Shown here in pieces: positions 1 through 45,996 of a stretch of DNA of 64,000 bases (positions within the stretch are counted from its first letter, which is position 1; every line of letters starts with the position of its first letter). A model generated the notes under the pieces. It was not told the DNA's origin. It did not search any database and saw only the letters and a list, made by a program, of their open reading frames with translations. The position numbers and the translations under genes were made by a program. The stretch is from Propionibacteriaceae bacterium (GTDB taxonomy: Bacteria > Actinomycetota > Actinomycetes > Propionibacteriales > Propionibacteriaceae): assembly GCA_009782785.1 (NCBI GenBank), contig WRIJ01000004.1, positions 1 to 64,000 of the forward strand, read 5' to 3'.

Positions 1-139
1 TGCGGAGCACTGCGAGTCGCCCTGGCGGGCTCCGCAGCACCACGACGCAGGTTGAGCGGAGAGTGCGCTTGCGCACTATCCCGAAACCAAGGAAGTGGTT
101 GACGAACGAAGTGAGGAGCACAGGCTCCGCGACTCGCAC
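1..139. repeat. Long palindromic element, truncated by window edge
   Basis: Nearly identical to positions 42010-42148. It has the palindromic head, then the CCACGACGCAGG segment, then the conserved tail AAGGAAGTGGTTGACGAACG, and ends at a GACTCGCA arm. The left arm lies outside the window. Short open frames here are read through the repeat and are not genes. Confidence 0.75.
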
Positions 140-233
140 AAGCGATCCAGAAACCATATTCAGCATGTGTGGGAGTCTGTGTGTCATGATCAACCACGAC
201 AGACTTACCAACTGTTGCTGGTTGCATTTCTGG

Positions 234-267
234 ATTCTGCGAGTCGGGCTAGCGCCCTCCGCGGAAT
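234..267. repeat. Short palindromic element (REP-like)
   Basis: Imperfect palindrome with arms ATTCTGCG and CGCGGAAT around a GGCTAGCGCC-type centre. It is followed by GAC, as in most other copies of this family in the window. Confidence 0.7.
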
Positions 268-308
268 GACTTTGTGAGTGAGCTGCGCAGCATGACAGGG
301 CAGGTGTC

Positions 309-416
309 ACCCTGCGGAGCGAAGCGACTCGCACCACGACGCAGACCGAGGGCAGGGGCGCTTGCGAACATGGCGAGGTCAAGGAAGTGGTTGACCGAAC
401 GGAGTGAGTAACAGGG
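309..416. repeat. Long palindromic element, diverged subtype
   Basis: Begins with the arm ACCCTGCG and contains GAGCGAAGCGACTC, CCACGACGCAGACCGAGGGC and the tail AAGGAAGTGGTTGAC. This subtype matches, in reverse orientation, the element inside folP (13330-13474). No gene is visible between position 1 and the TetR promoter. Confidence 0.65.
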
Positions 417-5028: not shown

Positions 5029-5085
5029 TTCTGCTTACTCGGTCAGTGTGGTTTCGGCTTCGCAGGGACTAATCAAACCCCCGTC

Positions 5086-5430
5086 ATCCTGCGGACGGAT
5101 GAAAACCGTCTCGCAGGATCGATCGCTGACGAGCCATCACAAACTGGTCATTCCGCGGAGCGCGCCAGCGCGACTTGGCAGGAATCCAGACATGCGATTT
5201 ACCACGGCTGTGGAGTCTGTTGGTGGTAGGTGCATTCGTTGGACTCTTCAACCAAGCGACTATGATATCTAGACCCTGCGAGTCGCTTCGCTCCGCAGGG
5301 TGACCGGGGTGGGTTGTCATTGCCCGCAACTGTTCAACGGTCATCGTTGCGTTGTGACTCTGTTTCCATGTCCGCGCACCCCACCCAGATGGTCTTTCCG
5401 CGGAGCGCGCTAGCGCGACTTGGCAGGAAT
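5086..5430. repeat. Cluster of four short palindromic elements
   Basis: Four copies of the family fill this gene-free stretch. 5086-5119 has arms ATCCTGCG/CGCAGGAT with inner GACGG/CCGTC. 5150-5185 starts ATTCCGCG, has a GCGCGCCAGCGCG core and ends GGAAT. 5273-5301 is ACCCTGCG/CGCAGGGT around GCTTCGC. 5396-5430 has a GCGCGCTAGCGCG core. Several are preceded by GTCA-like bases and followed by CCAGA. No coding capacity is evident from 4981 to 5614. Confidence 0.7.
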
Positions 5431-5456
5431 CCAGATACTCGAGTCGCCTGATGTTG

Positions 5457-7561: not shown

Positions 7562-7622
7562 CAATGAGGAATAGCCGGGAGATAGCACCTCCGGCTGGAC
7601 GACGAGGAATTCCCCCCACATG

Positions 7623-7677
7623 CCCTTCGCGTACACAGAAAACGGTCATGATGACCGTTAACTGTGGACGCGAAGGG
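7623..7677. repeat. Long palindrome, second repeat family, copy 1
   Basis: Nested perfect arms: CCCTTCGCGT/ACGCGAAGGG (outer, 10 bp), CACAG/CTGTG (middle) and ACGGTCAT/ATGACCGT (inner). The central part, CACAG to CTGTG, recurs at 45953-45985 with different outer arms. It lies after the nucleotidyltransferase gene and could terminate transcription or bind a dimeric protein. Confidence 0.65.
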
Positions 7678-10386: not shown

Positions 10387-11079
10387 ATGCTCCACGTCAC
10401 TGATATAGTCATCGACTACCCTGATGGTACGCGAGCAGTCGATGGAATGAGTCTTGCCATAGCGCCTGGAGAATCGGTGGCACTCATTGGTGCGAATGGT
10501 GCTGGAAAGACTTCACTGCTGCTGGCACTGGTTGGCATTCTTCCGCTAGCGCGCGGTGACATCATGATCGCTGGTCTCCAGTTGTCGAAGAAGACTCTGC
10601 GTGAGGTACGTGCAAAAGTCGGTCTGGTGTTTCAAGATCCTGATGATCAGCTCTTCATGCCCACCGTCGGTGAGGATGTGGGGTTTGGGCCACGCAGTTT
10701 TGGGTGCGATGAGTCCGAGACGACCATGCGGGTGGAGGCAGCTCTTGGTGGTCTGTCGATCAGTCACCTTGGGGATCGTTCACCACTGAAACTTTCTGCT
10801 GGCGAGAAACGTCTCGGTGCGATAGCGAGCGTACTATCGATGAAACCAGAACTCCTCCTTTTTGATGAACCGACTGCTTTCCTCGATCCGAAAGCACGGC
10901 GAAACCTCATTGCGCTGATGTCGGATCTTCCGCAAGCTAAGCTCATTGCCACCCATGATCTGGATTTTGCTCACCAGGTGTGTAGCCGCGTACTGCTCAT
11001 CGAAAAAGGAACACTCATCGAGGATAGTGGAGTGGAACTTCTTGACGACCGACAGCGCCTAGAAGGCTCAGGGTTATAA
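10387..11079 (+). CDS. cbiO: ECF transporter ATPase for cobalt/nickel
   Basis: 230 residues from ATG 10387. Walker A is GANGAGKTS, the Q-loop region is LVFQDPDDQLF (characteristic of CbiO/EcfA), the signature is a variant LSAGEKR, Walker B is LLLFDEPTAFLD, and the switch His is in IATHDLDF. A start at 10261 in the same frame would overlap cbiQ by over 100 nt and is rejected. It is somewhat shorter than EcfA proteins. A hairpin terminator follows at 11133. Confidence 0.93.
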   Translation: MLHVTDIVIDYPDGTRAVDGMSLAIAPGESVALIGANGAGKTSLLLALVGILPLARGDIMIAGLQLSKKTLREVRAKVGLVFQDPDDQLFMPTVGEDVGFGPRSFGCDESETTMRVEAALGGLSISHLGDRSPLKLSAGEKRLGAIASVLSMKPELLLFDEPTAFLDPKARRNLIALMSDLPQAKLIATHDLDFAHQVCSRVLLIEKGTLIEDSGVELLDDRQRLEGSGL

Positions 11080-11132
11080 CCCCTCACCAAGATGTGGGGG
11101 TGAACCAACCCGTGGGATGGGACATAAAGAAT

Positions 11133-11162
11133 GAGGGGCCTGCACAAAAGCACAGGCCCCTC
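11133..11162 (+). terminator. Terminator hairpin after cbiO
   Basis: Perfect 10-bp stem GAGGGGCCTG/CAGGCCCCTC with a 10-nt loop, followed by TCTCT. It lies between convergent genes and could serve both strands. Confidence 0.65.
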
Positions 11163-11166
11163 TCTA

Positions 11167-11196
11167 CGACAAGGCACTGGGAGGCGGGCCTTGTCG
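11167..11196. other. Second GC-rich hairpin between convergent genes
   Basis: 9-bp arms CGACAAGGC/GCCTTGTCG with a 12-nt loop, 4 nt after the first hairpin. Further on, 7-bp arms ATGATAG (11243-11249) and CTATCAT (11270-11276) form another inverted repeat. There is no gene in 11080-11380; I cannot assign a function beyond possible termination for the minus-strand fol operon. Confidence 0.35.
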
Positions 11197-11380
11197 CGGT
11201 CTAGTGTGGTGTAGCGAACCCCCACGAGGCTCAGCTACCACTATGATAGTTAATGCTACCCCGCATCAGCTATCATTGTTGTGGAAATACTAGCATAACG
11301 AATGAACTGTCAATACCACTGCGTTACCGTGATGGTGACCTGGTGACATGGCGAGAAACCCCTGGTGAGTGGTCGTACGG

Positions 11381-12427
11381 CTACGGTAGGAATAGTGAGT
11401 CCCCAGTCTTTCGTACTCCTTGATCCAATAACCCACTGACAAGGATATTTACCGGCTCATCAGAGAGAATCGCCCCTGGATCGAGCTCCATCCAAGGGGT
11501 GAGTACGAACGCTCGCAAAGCTGCTCGTGGGTGCGGAAGCACCAGAATATCGGTGTCGGAAGTCTCGTTCCCGACCGTAATTAGGTCGATATCTAAAGTC
11601 CGAGGTCCGTGAGATATCTCATGGGTTCTTCCGCAAATATCCTCAATTTCTTGGGATCGACGCAAGAGTTCGACGCTCGACAATGACGATTCCGCGATAA
11701 GAATGGCATTGAGGAAGTCGGATTGTGGGACCTCAGATTGGGGTGTGGTTTCGTAAACCGAGGAGACTCGCGGATGGTGAATCCCAGGAGTTGATGCTAA
11801 GGCGGTAACACCGAATTGGAGGTAATCCAACCGGGGTTCGATGTTGGATCCCAAGGAGAAGACGCAGGTGCGAAGTTCATGAGGGTCCGTGCGATGATGT
11901 GGATTCTGGACCCTGCGAGTCGCGGAGCCTGCGCTGCGGAGCCCGCTAGAGCGACTCGCAGTGCTCCGCAGGGTGACGGGAGTGGGGGCTTCACTGGCAC
12001 GTAGGAGGAGGTGGTCTTGGCCCGTTTCTTCTGCCATGGTGAGAGTCAAGACGACATCATCAAACTCCACATCGAGTGGTGCATCCGGTTTGTGCAGTAC
12101 GATTCGAGCGTACTCAAAACCAAAACGAGTGAACAAGCGGTCGAGGATCTGGTACCCCAGAGTTTCGATGAGGTCCACTTGCGTACCCTGCAAGAGCTCA
12201 ATGACGAAATTCGAGACCTCCCCATAATCGGCGGTACGCCCAAGATCGTCGAACTCGGCAGCTGAAGCCATGGGTTGCCACCAGGAGAGGTCCACGATAA
12301 AAGGTTGCCCGTCCCTACGTTCATGATCGAAGACACCGTGGTACGCCCAGGTGGTGATCCCTTGGACCTCCATACGGTCAAGGGTCTCCATGCGGGTGAG
12401 GTCGTGGTCAGACAATGGTCTCATCAT
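11381..12427 (-). CDS. folB-folK: Bifunctional dihydroneopterin aldolase / HPPK, with repeat in linker
   Basis: 348 residues. Residues about 13-135 are FolB (VQGITTWAYHGVFDHERRDG), which cleaves dihydroneopterin. Residues about 187-335 are FolK (FSLGSNIEPR, SSVYETTPQ, GPRTLDIDLI), which pyrophosphorylates hydroxymethyldihydropterin. Between them, residues about 150-175 (PVTLRSTAS..., ending SATRRVQ) are translated from the window's palindromic repeat at 11910-11974, so the linker is a repeat insertion that kept the frame. The start is one of two adjacent ATGs with GGAAGAG upstream. It is the last gene of ftsH-folE-folP-folBK. Confidence 0.92.
   Translation of the reverse strand: MMRPLSDHDLTRMETLDRMEVQGITTWAYHGVFDHERRDGQPFIVDLSWWQPMASAAEFDDLGRTADYGEVSNFVIELLQGTQVDLIETLGYQILDRLFTRFGFEYARIVLHKPDAPLDVEFDDVVLTLTMAEETGQDHLLLRASEAPTPVTLRSTASRSSGLRSAGSATRRVQNPHHRTDPHELRTCVFSLGSNIEPRLDYLQFGVTALASTPGIHHPRVSSVYETTPQSEVPQSDFLNAILIAESSLSSVELLRRSQEIEDICGRTHEISHGPRTLDIDLITVGNETSDTDILVLPHPRAALRAFVLTPWMELDPGAILSDEPVNILVSGLLDQGVRKTGDSLFLP
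11910..11974. repeat. Palindromic element inside the FolB-FolK reading frame
   Basis: Arms ACCCTGCG/CGCAGGGT enclose GAGTCGCGGAGC and GAGCGACTCGC segments seen in intergenic copies; GTGAC follows. Its minus-strand reading frame encodes PVTLRSTAS, the same peptide frame as the element in folP (PVTLRCTAS). Confidence 0.8.
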
Positions 12428-12451
12428 TACTCTTCCGACTCAGTTTGGTGG

Positions 12452-12558
12452 TTGATGCGGTTCTGTTCCTCACTTCGTTCGTCAACCATTTCCTTGCTCC
12501 GCGGGACGATTCCACCAACCCCGTCATGCTGCGCGCGGAGAATACCGCGTCGCAGTAT
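12452..12558. repeat. Palindromic element between folP and folBK
   Basis: Two parts. The tail segment at 12452-12496 matches 13330-13374 inside folP at all but one of 45 positions (shared core CCTCACTTCGTTCGTCAACC). A short palindrome at 12526-12558 has arms ATGCTGCG/CGCAGTAT with inner GCGCGG/CCGCGT-like arms. It separates the two fol genes by 183 bp, whereas other junctions of the operon are 3-9 bp. Confidence 0.7.
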
Positions 12559-12610
12559 CCAGAATTCACACTGCCACGATAAACAGTACGCACGAAACAA
12601 TCACCCACCA

Positions 12611-13783
12611 TCACATGTCCTCACGCTCAGTCTCATCCACATGGTATCGATCAAGGTGATGCACTCGTAAACCCCAAACACCGGCATGAATCAGGGCTTG
12701 CCCCACGTCAACAGAGGCATCATCACGTTCCCAGGGATGAGTGTCGTGGTTGTACATCGTTGCCAGAAACCTCTTGCGTGACACCCCCCACAATGTCGGA
12801 AACCCGAGTGATTGAATCTCATCGACATGCGCAATCAGCTCCCAATTCTGTTCTGCAGATTTACCAAAACCAATACCGGGATCAACGACGAGATGCCCAG
12901 GATCAAGACCCGCATTTAGTGCTGATTTAATACGGTCGGTGAGCTCAGAAAGAACCTCGTTAACCACAGACTCGTGGGTGGACTCATGGTCGAAAGGAGT
13001 ACGCCAATGCCCCAGGATGAAACCCACCTTGTGTGACGCTGCAACCCCCATGATCTCTGGTTCCACCAATCCACCCGAGACATCATTGATGATCACCGCC
13101 CCAACCTCGATGGCTCGCTTTGCCACGGTGGCGCGCACTGTATCTATACTGACAGCGACCCCTTCACTGGCCAGCGCCTCCACCACTGGAATCACACGAG
13201 CCAACTCTTCAGCTTCCGATACTCGGTGAGCTCCTGGGCGGGTAGACTCCCCACCCACATCGACGATGGCAGCACCCTTGCGGGCATGGTCGAGTCCCAG
13301 GGTAATGGAGGAGTCAATGAGTGTTGTGGTTGATGTGGTTCTGTTCCTCACTTCGTTCGTCAACCATTTCCTTGACTTCGGCATGTATGCAAGCATCCCT
13401 GCCCTCGGTCTGCGTCGTGGTAGACCCTGTGAGTCGCACTGCTCGCGCTTCGCACTCGCAGTGCACCGCAGGGTGACAGGGCTGGGGGTGTGCTCTTTGG
13501 ATGGGGATGGGGGTGCACTCCTTGGATGGGGATGGGGGCCGTAGGGCGACGGGGAAGCCGCCATCGCGGTGGCGGGGAAGCTGCCAGAATCCACACTGCC
13601 ACTAAAAGAGTCCGGGGTCACATTGACGATCCCCATCAAGCGCGTCGGTCCTCCGGTGAACAGGGATGCCAACGAAGGACGACTCTGGCTGGTCACGGGT
13701 CCTGTGCCCCTTCGCTCGCGTATGGAGACATGCGACCCGAAATCCGCACAAGCCACCCTACGATCGACTTCCGCCTCGGACAC
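12611..13783 (-). CDS. folP: Dihydropteroate synthase with large repeat-encoded insertion
   Basis: DHPS condenses pABA with dihydropterin pyrophosphate. Family blocks are all present: LMGIVNVTPDSFS (49-61), AAIVDVGGESTRPGA (171-185), SIDTVRATVA, VIINDVSGG, DPGIGFGKSAEQNW and GVSRKRFL near the end. The protein is 390 residues, against about 280 normally. The excess lies at residues about 63-157, between the first beta-strand loop and helix, exactly where the palindromic repeat (13330-13474) and a G-rich duplication are translated. The frame is intact and all catalytic blocks survive, so the enzyme may work with a disordered loop. Start 3 nt after folE. Confidence 0.9.
   Translation of the reverse strand: MSEAEVDRRVACADFGSHVSIRERRGTGPVTSQSRPSLASLFTGGPTRLMGIVNVTPDSFSGSVDSGSFPATAMAASPSPYGPHPHPRSAPPSPSKEHTPSPVTLRCTASAKREQCDSQGLPRRRPRAGMLAYMPKSRKWLTNEVRNRTTSTTTLIDSSITLGLDHARKGAAIVDVGGESTRPGAHRVSEAEELARVIPVVEALASEGVAVSIDTVRATVAKRAIEVGAVIINDVSGGLVEPEIMGVAASHKVGFILGHWRTPFDHESTHESVVNEVLSELTDRIKSALNAGLDPGHLVVDPGIGFGKSAEQNWELIAHVDEIQSLGFPTLWGVSRKRFLATMYNHDTHPWERDDASVDVGQALIHAGVWGLRVHHLDRYHVDETEREDM
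13330..13474. repeat. Long palindromic element inside folP
   Basis: 145 bp, opposite orientation to the copy at 309-416 and of the same subtype. Tail segment 13330-13374, then CCCTCGGTCTGCGTCGTGG, then the palindromic head with arms ACCCTGTG/CGCAGGGT (13424-13474). Read on the minus strand it gives an open frame including SRKWLTNEVRN, which also appears in translations of the intergenic copies. Confidence 0.82.
13497..13538. repeat. G-rich direct duplication inside folP
   Basis: TTGGATGGGGATGGGGG occurs twice with 25-bp spacing, on the plus (template) strand, giving four runs of 4-5 G. It encodes a Pro/Ser/His-rich peptide on the minus strand. Potential G-quadruplex. Confidence 0.6.
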
Positions 13784-13786
13784 TGG

Positions 13787-14362
13787 TCAACGACCTTGGG
13801 GAGCAGAAATCAAACTCATGGCCTCAGCACGAGTCGTCGGGTTCATCAGAGCCCCACGTACTGCTGAAGTGAGAGTACGCGAACCCGGTTTACGTACCCC
13901 ACGCATCGACATACACAGATGCTCAGCTTCAATGACAACGATGACTCCGGCTGCATCCAGCTCCTCCATGAGTGCATCCGCAATCTGGGTCGTGAGCCGC
14001 TCTTGCACCTGGAGCCTCTTTGCGAAAACATCCACCAGGCGCGCAATCTTCGACAACCCAACGATTTCGCGACTCTTGCCCGGGATATATCCCACATGAG
14101 CCAATCCAGTGAAAGGCACCAGATGGTGCTCGCAATAACTCCACAACTCAATATCGCGTACCAGGATCATCTCCTGATGATCAATATTGAACCGTGTCCC
14201 CAACACCTGCGAAGGGTCCTGGTACAACCCAGCAAAAGCCTCCTCATAGGCACGCGCTACCCGTGAAGGAGTCTCGCGCAATCCTTCACGATCAGGGTCC
14301 TCCCCGATCCCGATGAGCAACTCCCGTACTGCGGATTGAACACGTTCAGCATCAAAAGTCAT
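13787..14362 (-). CDS. folE: GTP cyclohydrolase I
   Basis: 191 residues, normal family length. It converts GTP to dihydroneopterin triphosphate, the first step of folate synthesis. Zinc and catalytic residues are visible in [10 protein letters not shown] and [32 protein letters not shown] is the conserved core. It lies 9 nt downstream of ftsH and 3 nt upstream of folP on the minus strand, so it is cotranscribed. Confidence 0.96.
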
Positions 14363-14371
14363 GACTCCTCC

Positions 14372-16546
14372 TCAAACTTTTGGTGGGGGAAAATCCTCTG
14401 GAGACTGAGGATCAATCCACGTTCCTGGTCCCATGGGATTCTCCGGCCCTAAAGGCGTGGGGGTGATTTTCTTCGGTACGAGCCGACCAGACTCATGGGA
14501 TGCATTTGCTGGCTCCGCCGCATCAGTGGGTTCTGCATTGCTCGGTCCTTCAGCCTTGGAACCGGGCTCCTGGGTCGCAGAGTCGTCGAGGACAGGTTCA
14601 GGAACCTCAGGGGCTGGAATGGGTGGAATCTTTGACGGTTTGCGTGTCTTGGACCCTGTCCATGCTGGTCGCGGGGGCCTCAGATTCAAGTCTGTGAAGA
14701 TCTCCGCAACCTGCTCCTTGCCCAGGGTCTCCAGCTCCAACAGCTGACGTACCAACTCATCGAGGATCTCCCGATTATCCACCAGCGCATCGAAAGCCTC
14801 CTGGTGGGCGGTGTTGATGAGTAGAGAAATCTCTGAATCGATCATCGCCGCAGTGGCTGGGGACACGGTCGAAGAATGCCCCACTTCCATGCCCACAAAC
14901 GGTTCCCGATCATCCGATCCGTACCGTACTGCTCCTAAGGCCTCAGTCATCCCGTACTGGGTCACCATTGCGCGAGCAAGCTTCGTTGCTTTCTCAATGT
15001 CATTGCCCGCACCAGTCGTAGGGTCATGGAAGATCAGCTCCTCCGCCGCTCGTCCACCGAGAGTGTACGCCAACTGATCCAGCAACTGGCCGCGAGTTTG
15101 AGAATACTTGTCCTGATCAGGCATGACCATGGTGTACCCCAAGGCCTTGCCTCGCGGGAGGATCGTGATCTTCTGGACCGGATCGTTGCCCGGCATAGCT
15201 GCTGCCACCAGAGCATGGCCCGCCTCATGATAGGCCGTGATGAGGATCTCTTGAGAGTTCATGATGCGGGTACGCTTCTGGGGCCCAGCGATCACGCGAT
15301 CAATCGACTCATCGAGGACTGAGTTGGAGATCTGTTTCAGGTTCGTACGGGCTGCAAGCAGGGCCGCCTCATTGAGAACATTAGCCAAGTCAGCGCCAGT
15401 GAACCCCGGTGTACGGCGAGCAACCGACTCCAGATCGACACCCTCTTCGAGAGGTTTATCTTGGGCATGAACCTTCAGGATGTTGAAACGCCCCTTCAAG
15501 TCGGGAGCATCAACAGCGATCTGGCGATCGAAACGCCCCGGACGAAGCAGGGCCGGATCGAGAACATCAGGCCGGTTGGTTGCTGCGATGAGAATGACCC
15601 CAGAATGGGCATCGAAGCCATCCATCTCGACCAGGAGTTGATTGAGGGTCTGCTCACGTTCATCGTGGCCTCCACCCATACCAGCACCACGGTGACGGCC
15701 AACAGCATCAATTTCATCGATGAACACAATAGCCGGCGGGTGGGCTTTCGCTTGCTCAAAGAGGTCGCGTACCCGTGAAGCACCCACACCCACAAACATC
15801 TCCACGAAGTCTGACCCAGAAATGGTATAGAACGGTACACCGGCCTCCCCAGCGACAGCTCTCGCGAGCAGAGTTTTTCCTGTTCCTGGTGGGCCATAGA
15901 GCAACACCCCTTTGGGGATCTTTGCACCAAGGGCTTTGAATTTGCCCGGATCAGCGAGGAATTCTTTAATCTCCTGGAGTTCTTCAACCGCTTCGTCGAC
16001 CCCTGCAACATCCTCGAATGTTGTCTTCGGATTATCCTTGTTGGCCACCTTGGCTTTGGATCGCCCAAAACTCATGGCTCTCCCACCAGCCCCCATCGTA
16101 CTCATCATGAACCAGATCAGTATCACGATAAAAAGGATGGGGATGATCCAGCCCAGGACAGCATCCCACACACTGGGCATAGGGTTTTTGCCATTCCAGG
16201 TCTTGACTGACCCTTCGGCGTACCGCTCATTCAGGCGTTCAACAAGTTGATCGGAACCCTGACCAATCCAGTACGCCTTGAGATTGCAGGGAATTTCTTT
16301 ATCTTTGGCATCCTTCTTCGGAGCACACGTGTCAGGGCTTCTGGTGATTTCGATCGATTGGGTCTGGTCAGTGAGAACGACCTCATCGAGTTGGTCCGTA
16401 CCCATGATGATCATGATGGCTTCAGAGGTGGAGATCTCTTCAACCTCCGGCTGGGATCGTACCTGAACAATGACGAATCCTATGATCGCCAGCACGATCA
16501 TGATCCACAGGAAGGGACTGCGAAGAAGTGCTTTCAGAAGTTTCAT
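14372..16546 (-). CDS. ftsH: ATP-dependent zinc metalloprotease FtsH
   Basis: 724 residues. TM1 is at about 11-28 and TM2 at about 131-150, around an exoplasmic domain. The AAA domain has Walker A GPPGTGKT (218-225) and Walker B IVFIDEID, plus the second region of homology ([20 protein letters not shown]). The zinc protease site is HEAGH. The C-terminal tail of about 110 residues is rich in Pro, Glu and Ala and is poorly conserved, as in other actinobacteria. It degrades misfolded membrane proteins and some regulators. It leads the fol genes. Confidence 0.97.
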
Positions 16547-25028: not shown

Positions 25029-25178
25029 AGTGGTGCTCCTGGTTTCACACTATGTCAACATAGGTTCGGGTGGCCCTATTCCTTAATCGTGGGAATACGT
25101 GAGCCGTCTCATGGAAAGTGAGTCCGTGGGTGGTCCTAAGCAGCCGTCGATCAACATCGGGGTTAATGTGGATACTGG

Positions 25179-25487
25179 ATTCCGCGAGTCGGGCTGACGC
25201 CCTCCGCGGAATGACGGGAGGGTGGGGCCCACAGGATGACGGGAGGGCGCACTCCGCAGATTGACACACCCGGTTACTGTGAGCCCGCCGGGGTGACTTG
25301 CAGTGCTCCGCGGAATGACGGGAGGGTGGGGCCCACAGGATGACGGGAGGGCGCACTCCGCAGATTGACACACTCGGTTACCGTGAGCCCGCCGGGGTGA
25401 CTTGCGGTGCTCCGCGGAATGACGGGAGGGTGCACTCCGCGGAATGACACACCTGGTCACCCTGCGGAACGAAGTGACTCGCAGGGT
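25179..25487. repeat. Palindromic element field with 104-bp tandem duplication
   Basis: 25179-25212 is a short palindrome (ATTCCGCG/CGCGGAAT). A 104-bp unit beginning CTCCGCGGAATGACGGGAGG starts at 25202 and 25306, with a shortened third copy at 25410. Units carry GTGAC/GTCA-like edges and CTCCGCGG cores of the same family. 25459-25487 is another short palindrome (ACCCTGCG/CGCAGGGT), followed by CCAGATATCACAC. No gene is evident in 25029-25533. Confidence 0.75.
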
Positions 25488-25533
25488 CCAGATATCACAC
25501 TGGCTATGGTGGTGACCGTCGGTGGTTTGGGGA

Positions 25534-36358: not shown

Positions 36359-36433
36359 GGCTTTCCCTCACTTCAATCACCCTCGGCAGGGTGCAACAAT
36401 GTCTTAAGGTCCACACTAGTGGTCGATCAATGG

Positions 36434-36511
36434 ATTCTGCGAGTCGCGCTGGCGCGCTCCGCAAAATGACGGTGACCATGTCACCCTGCGGCACGAAGTG
36501 ACTCGCAGGGT
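36434..36511. repeat. Two short palindromic elements
   Basis: 36434-36467 has arms ATTCTGCG/CGCAAAAT around GCGCTGGCGCGC; 36483-36511 has ACCCTGCG/CGCAGGGT around GCACGAAGTGAC and is followed by CCAGATATCACA. The rest of the gap (36512-36680) holds nothing I can identify. Confidence 0.7.
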
Positions 36512-36680
36512 CCAGATATCACATCAAGTGCAAGGGTGGGTCTGTCGAATATGCTCACAACTGCGGAAAGACCGTCTGGGTGGGGAACGCGGACATGGAA
36601 ACAGAGTTGCACCGCAACGATCTTGTGGGCACGCCGCTAAGCAGTCGTGGACATGGAATGACCCACCACCACCCGTACTC

Positions 36681-41863: not shown

Positions 41864-41926
41864 TCTGCCCTGCGTAGTGGCGGGAGTGTTCTTTAGCTAT
41901 CTCTATGTTCACCATGGAACTGATGG

Positions 41927-41955
41927 ATTCTGCGAGTCGCTTCGCTCCGCAGAAT
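41927..41955. repeat. Short palindromic element
   Basis: ATTCTGCG/CGCAGAAT arms around AGTCGCTTCGCTC; followed by GAC. A second, degenerate GTCGCTCTGGTGCGGTCCGCAG lies just downstream. Confidence 0.75.
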
Positions 41956-42005
41956 GACGGGGGAGTCGCTCTGGTGCGGTCCGCAGGATGTGCCCCTGCT
42001 GTGTC

Positions 42006-42151
42006 ACCCTGCGGAGCACTGTGAGTCGCCCTAGTGGGCTCCGCAGCACCACGACGCAGGTTGAGCGGAGAGTGCGCTTGCGCACTATCCCGAAACCAAG
42101 GAAGTGGTTGACGAACGAAGTGAGAAACACAGGCTCCGCGACTCGCAGGGT
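42006..42151. repeat. Complete long palindromic element (best example)
   Basis: 146 bp bounded by ACCCTGCG and CGCAGGGT and followed by CCAGATATCACAC. Internal modules in order: palindromic head, CCACGACGCAGG, GTGCGCTTGCGCAC hairpin, tail AAGGAAGTGGTTGACGAACG, and a closing CTCCGCGACTCGCA. Nearly identical to 1-139. It lies just upstream of the promoter of the next gene. Confidence 0.8.
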
Positions 42152-42187
42152 CCAGATATCACACTCGGCACGATATAGAATGTGGCC

Positions 42188-45907: not shown

Positions 45908-45944
45908 ACACCACCCAACACACTGGGACGTACCTTTTATGCTG

Positions 45945-45996
45945 CTCCCCTCCACAGTTAACGGTTATGATGACCGTTTACTGTGGGTACGAGGGA
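45945..45996. repeat. Long palindrome, second repeat family, copy 2
   Basis: Outer CTCCC/GGGAG, middle CACAG/CTGTG, inner ACGGT/ACCGT around TATGATG. Shares its centre with 7623-7677. Located between the IclR gene and the promoter of the fhaA operon, with a -10-like TAGGAT at 46006. Confidence 0.65.

Follow-up and report, generated by a model that had tools for sequence, protein, structure and literature searches.

The window, by which we mean the whole stretch of 64,000 nucleotides analysed here, comes from the draft genome of a Propionibacteriaceae bacterium and contains folP, the gene for dihydropteroate synthase (DHPS), adjoining folE and a gene for a FolB-FolK fusion protein. FolP is an essential folate-making enzyme and a classical drug target. 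The features of the two genes treated here are:

12611..13783, minus strand: folP, dihydropteroate synthase, 390 aa, GTG start (Pfam PF00809, E 2.6e-64; TIGR01496, 231 bits against a cut-off of 162.6)
13319..13603, minus strand: in-frame inserted block of folP, about 93-95 aa (absent from 28 aligned relatives and from solved DHPS; codon reading)
11381..12427, minus strand: FolB-FolK fusion gene (Pfam FolB and HPPK)
11897..11990, minus strand: in-frame REP hairpin in the FolB-FolK linker (element mask; comparison with solved homologues)

The folP reading frame is open throughout, and the inserted block begins directly after GAC TCT TTT AGT, the codons for DSFS of the VTPDSFS motif; the preliminary description had made both observations, and its coordinates for the insertion hold. 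It had also considered FolP about 110 residues longer than usual, an excess of which the insert supplies some 93-95 residues, while part belongs to an N-terminal leader before residue 44, outside the insert. The Pfam Pterin_bind domain spans residues 157-375 only, and the two best solved DHPS chains align to FolP residues 36-69 or 45-62 and then to 156/157-377/378, leaving the part between without counterpart. The best solved sequence matches are 6omz (Mycobacterium smegmatis) and 1eye (M. tuberculosis), in keeping with the actinobacterial host assumed at the outset. The NCBIfam Sul models match FolP far below their cut-offs.

A FolP match was present in 56 of the 57 genomes searched, the host genome included. 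The alignment set consisted of 29 loci from the 55 other FolP-bearing genomes, from which the partial locus L034 was dropped, and none of the remaining 28 full-length proteins contains a comparable block; conservation of the segment among relatives, which had been named as a possible objection, is not what is seen. In this alignment the loop of the L018 FolP exceeds those of its neighbours by about a dozen residues. The DGG that follows DSFS is lost in FolP and is also missing from close relatives. Six weaker matches starting inside or before the insert (G022 97-342, G035 77-342, G053 74-341, G021 75-342, G054 119-351 and G052 28-342, the last with 3 TGA) were not counted as insert-bearing; they represent second, more distant DHPS-like places, and the best match of each of these genomes starts past the insert. 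A second, intact folP in the host genome had been named as a possible objection, but the sole DHPS match outside element peptides is folP itself (genome 96.8% complete). In two uncultured Bacteroidales, FolP (L076 2635-3771 and L077 4-741) has an extra segment of its own just before VSVDTT, which in L077 consists of direct repeats of about 33 residues.

Along the gene, the inserted DNA shows an ordered composition, listed here together with a partial copy found nearby:

13584..13595, minus strand: TGTGGATTCTGG end, as in other copies (read 13595-13584; pairs with the far end in the RNA fold)
13479..13528, minus strand: two 25-bp tandem units, 84% alike, G-rich on the plus strand (repeat listing)
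13420..13478, minus strand: REP-like hairpin TGTC-ACCCTG...CAGGGT-CTA (arm at 13467-13477; folding)
13339..13425, minus strand: 81-bp-type A module (repeat comparison)
12442..12496, minus strand: partial copy downstream of folP, 0.9 kb away, 95% identical to 13320-13374 (read in reverse orientation, as in folP)

Next to the TGTGGATTCTGG end come a GC-rich stretch, the two tandem units, the hairpin and the 81-bp-type module, and the far end is worn; a second element-like end, CAGAACCACATCAACCACA, lies at about 13343-13325. The insert had earlier been equated with a palindrome at 13330-13474 plus a G-rich duplication; the duplication stands, but the element is wider than that palindrome and reaches to the two ends given above. 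A single stable DNA hairpin over 13330-13480 was rejected (z -0.67, 47 of 200 shuffles as good). In the family as a whole, a hairpin GTCACCCTGCGGAGC...GCGACTCGCAGGGTCCAGA is joined by a module of about 81 bp, often with G-rich spacers, and the module, which can be tandem, is often placed in the hairpin loop. Tandem repetition of the module is seen at L039 3175-3365 and L044 39-283. The copy at 12442-12496 and the folP copy have common variants that are missing from the other listed copies, which suggests, on the sequences compared, that the two are related by local copying. No target-site duplication is evident by eye at the folP ends. A RAYT-type mobiliser (Y1_Tnp, PF01797), the only transposase family searched, was absent from the host genome and found in 5 of 14 control genomes.

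The dispersal of the repeat was followed in the host genome (G000; 1.9 Mb in 26 contigs, 96.8% complete, 6.5% contamination) and in a sister species of the same genus, available as a separate assembly (G003; 1.6 Mb, 93% complete); both carriers are small, though a few other genomes are equally small. A blastn search with 13200-13700, in which 40 of 95 candidates were scored, returned at least 54 matches in the host genome, counting the query region, with E values elsewhere down to 2.8e-27, and a hairpin query returned at least 59 (40 of 159 candidates scored). Within the window the arm GTCAYYCYGCG is present 15 times, where 0.48 would be expected by chance. The arm GTCAYYCYGCGSARC is found 211 times in the host genome and 152 times in the sister species, with 0-5 occurrences per genome in 29 others, against 0, 0 and 0-2 for its reversed control. 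Likewise, the two carriers contain 39 and 46 exact copies of the 17-mer GACTCGCAGGGTCCAGA, which is absent from the remaining 196 of 198 family genomes, its control being absent throughout all 198. Further copies in the window are:

1..416, plus strand: two element copies at the contig start (repeat listing)
5083..5445, no strand assigned: REP cluster (repeat listing; arm pattern)
25170..25505, no strand assigned: REP cluster with a 104-bp tandem duplication (repeat listing; arm pattern)
36426..36625, no strand assigned: REP cluster flanked by a cytidine/deoxycytidylate-deaminase-type gene and a CorA-like gene (ORF pairs and Pfam)
41925..42170, no strand assigned: composite copy with hairpin arms and the A module in the loop (repeat comparison)

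A different dispersed palindrome, around AACGGTYATGATGACCGTT, lies at 7620-7676 and 45939-45995 of the window (75% identical).

Copies inside other genes were sought in stretches sampled mostly around copies, covering 520,959 distinct bases of the host genome (27.8%; 526,964 in all) and 202,504 of the sister species. The element mask on these stretches comprises 147 clusters in the former, 146 of them distinct since overlapping stretches counted one twice, and 60 in the latter; hairpin, ORF and frame counts rest on the set that includes the overlapping stretches. In the sampled part of the host genome, 12 of the 146 distinct clusters lie in frame inside 11 Pfam-supported genes: FolP, FolB-FolK, GcvT, MnmA, a GlcNAc-epimerase/sulfoquinovose-isomerase-like protein (two clusters), Ppx, a fused two-subunit ABC exporter that we take to be CydDC-like, a double-ATPase ABC protein, a bPH_2 protein, a DUF2344 protein and a TsaD-family protein, presumably TsaB-like, in which the far side of the insert has no Pfam match. 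Interdomain linkers account for two of the 12 (FolB-FolK and the double ATPase). More broadly, 20 of the 147 clusters are flanked within an ORF by 50 residues on either side; eight of these are no more than candidates for a place inside a gene. For six genes compared with solved homologues (FolP, GcvT, MnmA, the sugar isomerase with its two clusters, Ppx and FolB-FolK) the element supplies additional residues every time, which in FolB-FolK take the form of a lengthened linker. Creation of the FolB-FolK fusion by the element was considered and rejected: the sister species has the fusion without a masked linker element, and several same-genus relatives have FolB and FolK in a single frame. For GcvT and MnmA, the proteins of relatives can be aligned to either side of the insert and reach at most about 10 residues into it. 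In the sister species the GcvT and MnmA queries yield element matches only; no match lies outside the element peptide, though MnmA is present in 13 of 13 other same-genus genomes in this search; gene loss or incompleteness (93%) may be the cause.

The sister species has in-frame clusters of its own, three in each of two DnaE-type genes and one each in the ABC exporter, an oligopeptide-type ATPase and the DUF2344 protein. The clusters of the two DnaE-type polymerase genes (L074 1683-5450 and L098 3522-7481) lie partly at corresponding places. In the ABC exporter and the DUF2344 protein the element occupies a corresponding place in both species, so that either some insertions date far back or the site is a preferred one. 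The FolP of the sister species is without the loop insert, yet has element-derived stretches at both ends; its gene (L071 4055-5476) also encodes about 27 extra residues after SRKRFLA, outside the element mask.

The same family being in frame in other genes and in a separate assembly, a sequencing error in folP, which had been raised as an objection, is unlikely. A misjoining of a repeat copy into folP during assembly of this metagenome-type draft could be imagined from its 26 contigs, several of which end in copies of the repeat or inside the 81-bp module, and from its 6.5% contamination; since, however, FolP resembles the same relatives before and after the insert (identity to the sister species at 17 of 19 and 145 of 224 residues), the reading frame is preserved and comparable inserts occur in other genes, we regard such an artefact as very unlikely and the least credible of the readings weighed here.

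The forward arm, counted in 17 genes of both species with at most one mismatch and chance matches included, occurs in frames 0, 1 and 2 in 10, 17 and 9 cases, and clusters of 80-300 nt leave on average 2.1 of their 6 frames open, compared with 1.4 after base shuffling (n = 83, 14 with none). Genes broken by an element were sought among 68 same-strand ORF pairs meeting at an element (37 in the host, 31 in the sister species), of which 15 host pairs were compared with Pfam. None of these 15 revealed a gene interrupted out of frame, in a small test with six informative pairs, which have differing families on their two sides; the other nine say little because at least one side is without a family.

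These counts speak to the idea that the insert is cut from the RNA or skipped by the ribosome, leaving a mature enzyme with a normal loop. In an RNA fold of the whole insert the ends TGTGGATTCTGG and CAGAACCACATCAACCACA do pair (z -2.18, 4 of 200 shuffles as good), so that the insert can close, and bypassed palindromes are described for Magnusiomyces mitochondria in the available part of the source (PMC6649704). Yet bypassing needs no open frame, and many intragenic copies would then be expected out of frame or with stops, whereas 12 host clusters are in frame and none of the 15 pairs, six of them informative, was seen to be a broken gene; no Rfam match up to E 1 lies within 11000-15000 either. 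We consider RNA removal or bypassing very improbable and the insert most likely to be translated.

Whether FolP still functions with such a segment is not to be assumed because loop 1 of DHPS, where it is inserted, takes part in substrate binding, as far as the consulted part of the source goes (PMC10328974). The protein keeps 62 of the 68 columns that are at least 90% conserved among the 28 relatives and loses six, and in a leave-one-out comparison each relative loses 0-7 such columns. An AlphaFold2 model from a seven-row alignment has a mean pLDDT of 72 and a pTM of 0.68; in ten-residue blocks pLDDT is 32-53 for residues 61-150 and 71-98 for 151-380, except for 57 at 261-270. All 50 solved matches listed for the predicted structure are DHPS, with TM-scores by target length of 0.83-0.84 for the first two. 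The insert consists of 15% Pro, 14% Ser and 11% each of Thr and Arg, with a net charge of +9. FolP is thus predicted to combine a confident DHPS core with a disordered insert. Activity is judged from conservation and the absence of a second copy, and the enzyme most likely still works because the barrel and the conserved residues are kept and the insert looks disordered.

That folP is instead a decaying pseudogene, or that the cell takes up folate, with the frame open by luck, might be argued from the position of the insert beside the active site of the only DHPS and from the six changed near-invariant positions; given that the frame is open over all 390 residues, that the losses do not exceed those seen among the relatives (0-7) and that the neighbouring folE and FolB-FolK genes are intact, we hold this to be very unlikely. 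Retention of the insert as something helpful, for instance through altered substrate or inhibitor binding at loop 1, would suit the binding role of that loop (PMC10328974, as available) and the recurrence of the CydDC-like and DUF2344 insertions at corresponding places in both species. It fits poorly with the same family in many unrelated genes and different frames and with a sister FolP that lacks the insert, and its probability appears slighter still.

The insertion first described is confirmed and its interpretation supported, as one of many insertions by a lineage-specific repeat. The folP segment is very probably a copy of a multiplied palindromic repeat family, tolerated and translated selfish DNA in an enzyme that most likely works. 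A non-autonomous palindromic repeat, similar to CGTC-tagged REPs and often with an 81-bp module, would have multiplied in the lineage; where a copy landed in a gene and kept the frame, it would be translated as a flexible peptide rich in Pro, Ser, Thr and Arg because several element frames are without stops, and copies breaking needed genes would be lost by selection. In FolP the insert lies at loop 1 on the rim of the active site, apparently disordered and with the barrel kept. The sequences establish the insertion, the family it belongs to, its lack in relatives, the open frame, the conserved core and the recurrence in other genes; from these we infer translation, folding, activity, the selection against broken genes and the mode of movement.

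Rickettsia is the best-known host of palindromes inserted in frame into conserved genes. We lean towards the view that a REP family of the superfamily found in Rickettsia and Neisseria separately invaded a non-proteobacterial, probably actinobacterial, lineage and, since several of its frames lack stops, acts as a natural insertion scan of the proteome, in which long disordered segments within catalytic domains of essential enzymes, DHPS loop 1 included, are kept while functional. Such a further lineage, densely documented in two species and many genes and with repeat-free relatives for comparison, allows one to ask how selfish DNA turns into protein sequence, which protein sites accept inserts and whether one REP class is specially able to provide them; in FolP, a classical drug target with the insert next to its active site, tolerance is directly measurable.

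The kind of event is already known; what is new, as far as searched, is its host lineage, its arrangement and its placement in DHPS. The open-access literature yielded no account of comparable insertions in an actinobacterium, most subscription journals lying outside this coverage. The available part of the source on CGTC-tagged REPs (PMC3733652) describes a tag that is often TGTC or CCTC, an 8-9 bp stem beginning with A-T pairs, a tail that is mostly CCA, loops of 4-5 nt with exceptions, predominantly head-to-head and rarely tail-to-tail dimers, and many copies, some within genes, with no dedicated transposase reported; it includes Rickettsia RPE-4 and RPE-6 and Neisseria dRS3 and names Proteobacteria, Chlorobi, Bacteroidetes, Spirochaetes and Thermotogae as hosts. 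Among 149 host hairpins, found with a pattern that fixed GTC and left only the first base free, the tag is CGTC in 75, TGTC in 51, GGTC in 17 and AGTC in 6, and in the sister species it is CGTC in 48 of 60, against a background of 5.6% for CG before TCA. The tail is CCA in 125 of 149 and 58 of 60 hairpins, respectively; the folP copy has the tag TGTC and the tail CTA. Complementarity of the 8-bp stem is 0.97 and 0.998, largely fixed by the search pattern, with T-A or C-G as the second pair. The commonest loops are 13 and 6 nt, others being 18 and 49 nt, and neighbours are tail-to-tail, head-to-head and head-to-tail in 28, 15 and 4 cases in the host and in 12, 3 and 2 in the sister species.

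The repeat thus resembles CGTC-tagged REPs in its CGTC/TGTC tag, CCA tail and many, partly intragenic copies; its 8-bp stem is largely set by the search pattern, and among transposases Y1_Tnp was sought, with no match. It differs from them in loops of 6 and 13 or more nt, mostly tail-to-tail neighbours, the extra 81-bp module and the lineage. Because loop length and dimer orientation do not fit, the family is, as judged from sequence, CGTC-REP-like rather than a plain member, and it is at the level of this superfamily that the likeness to Rickettsia elements first proposed finds support. MITEs with in-frame ORFs, namely ERIC, the Correia 107-bp element and YPAL (PMC2229807, available part), are likewise small non-autonomous repeats translatable within genes, but their sequences are different, and the target-site duplication that is a MITE feature is the one not evident by eye at the folP ends. 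Rickettsia palindromic elements, compared here by description rather than by RPE sequence, are described in the accessible parts of two sources as lying in frame inside many unrelated conserved genes, and a guanylate kinase bearing one is reported to be translated and active (PMC10969869, PMC2229807). In-frame palindromic repeats in unrelated conserved genes are common to both systems; whereas one conserved peptide per RPE is described in the review, the same arm is read here in three frames and in a different host lineage.
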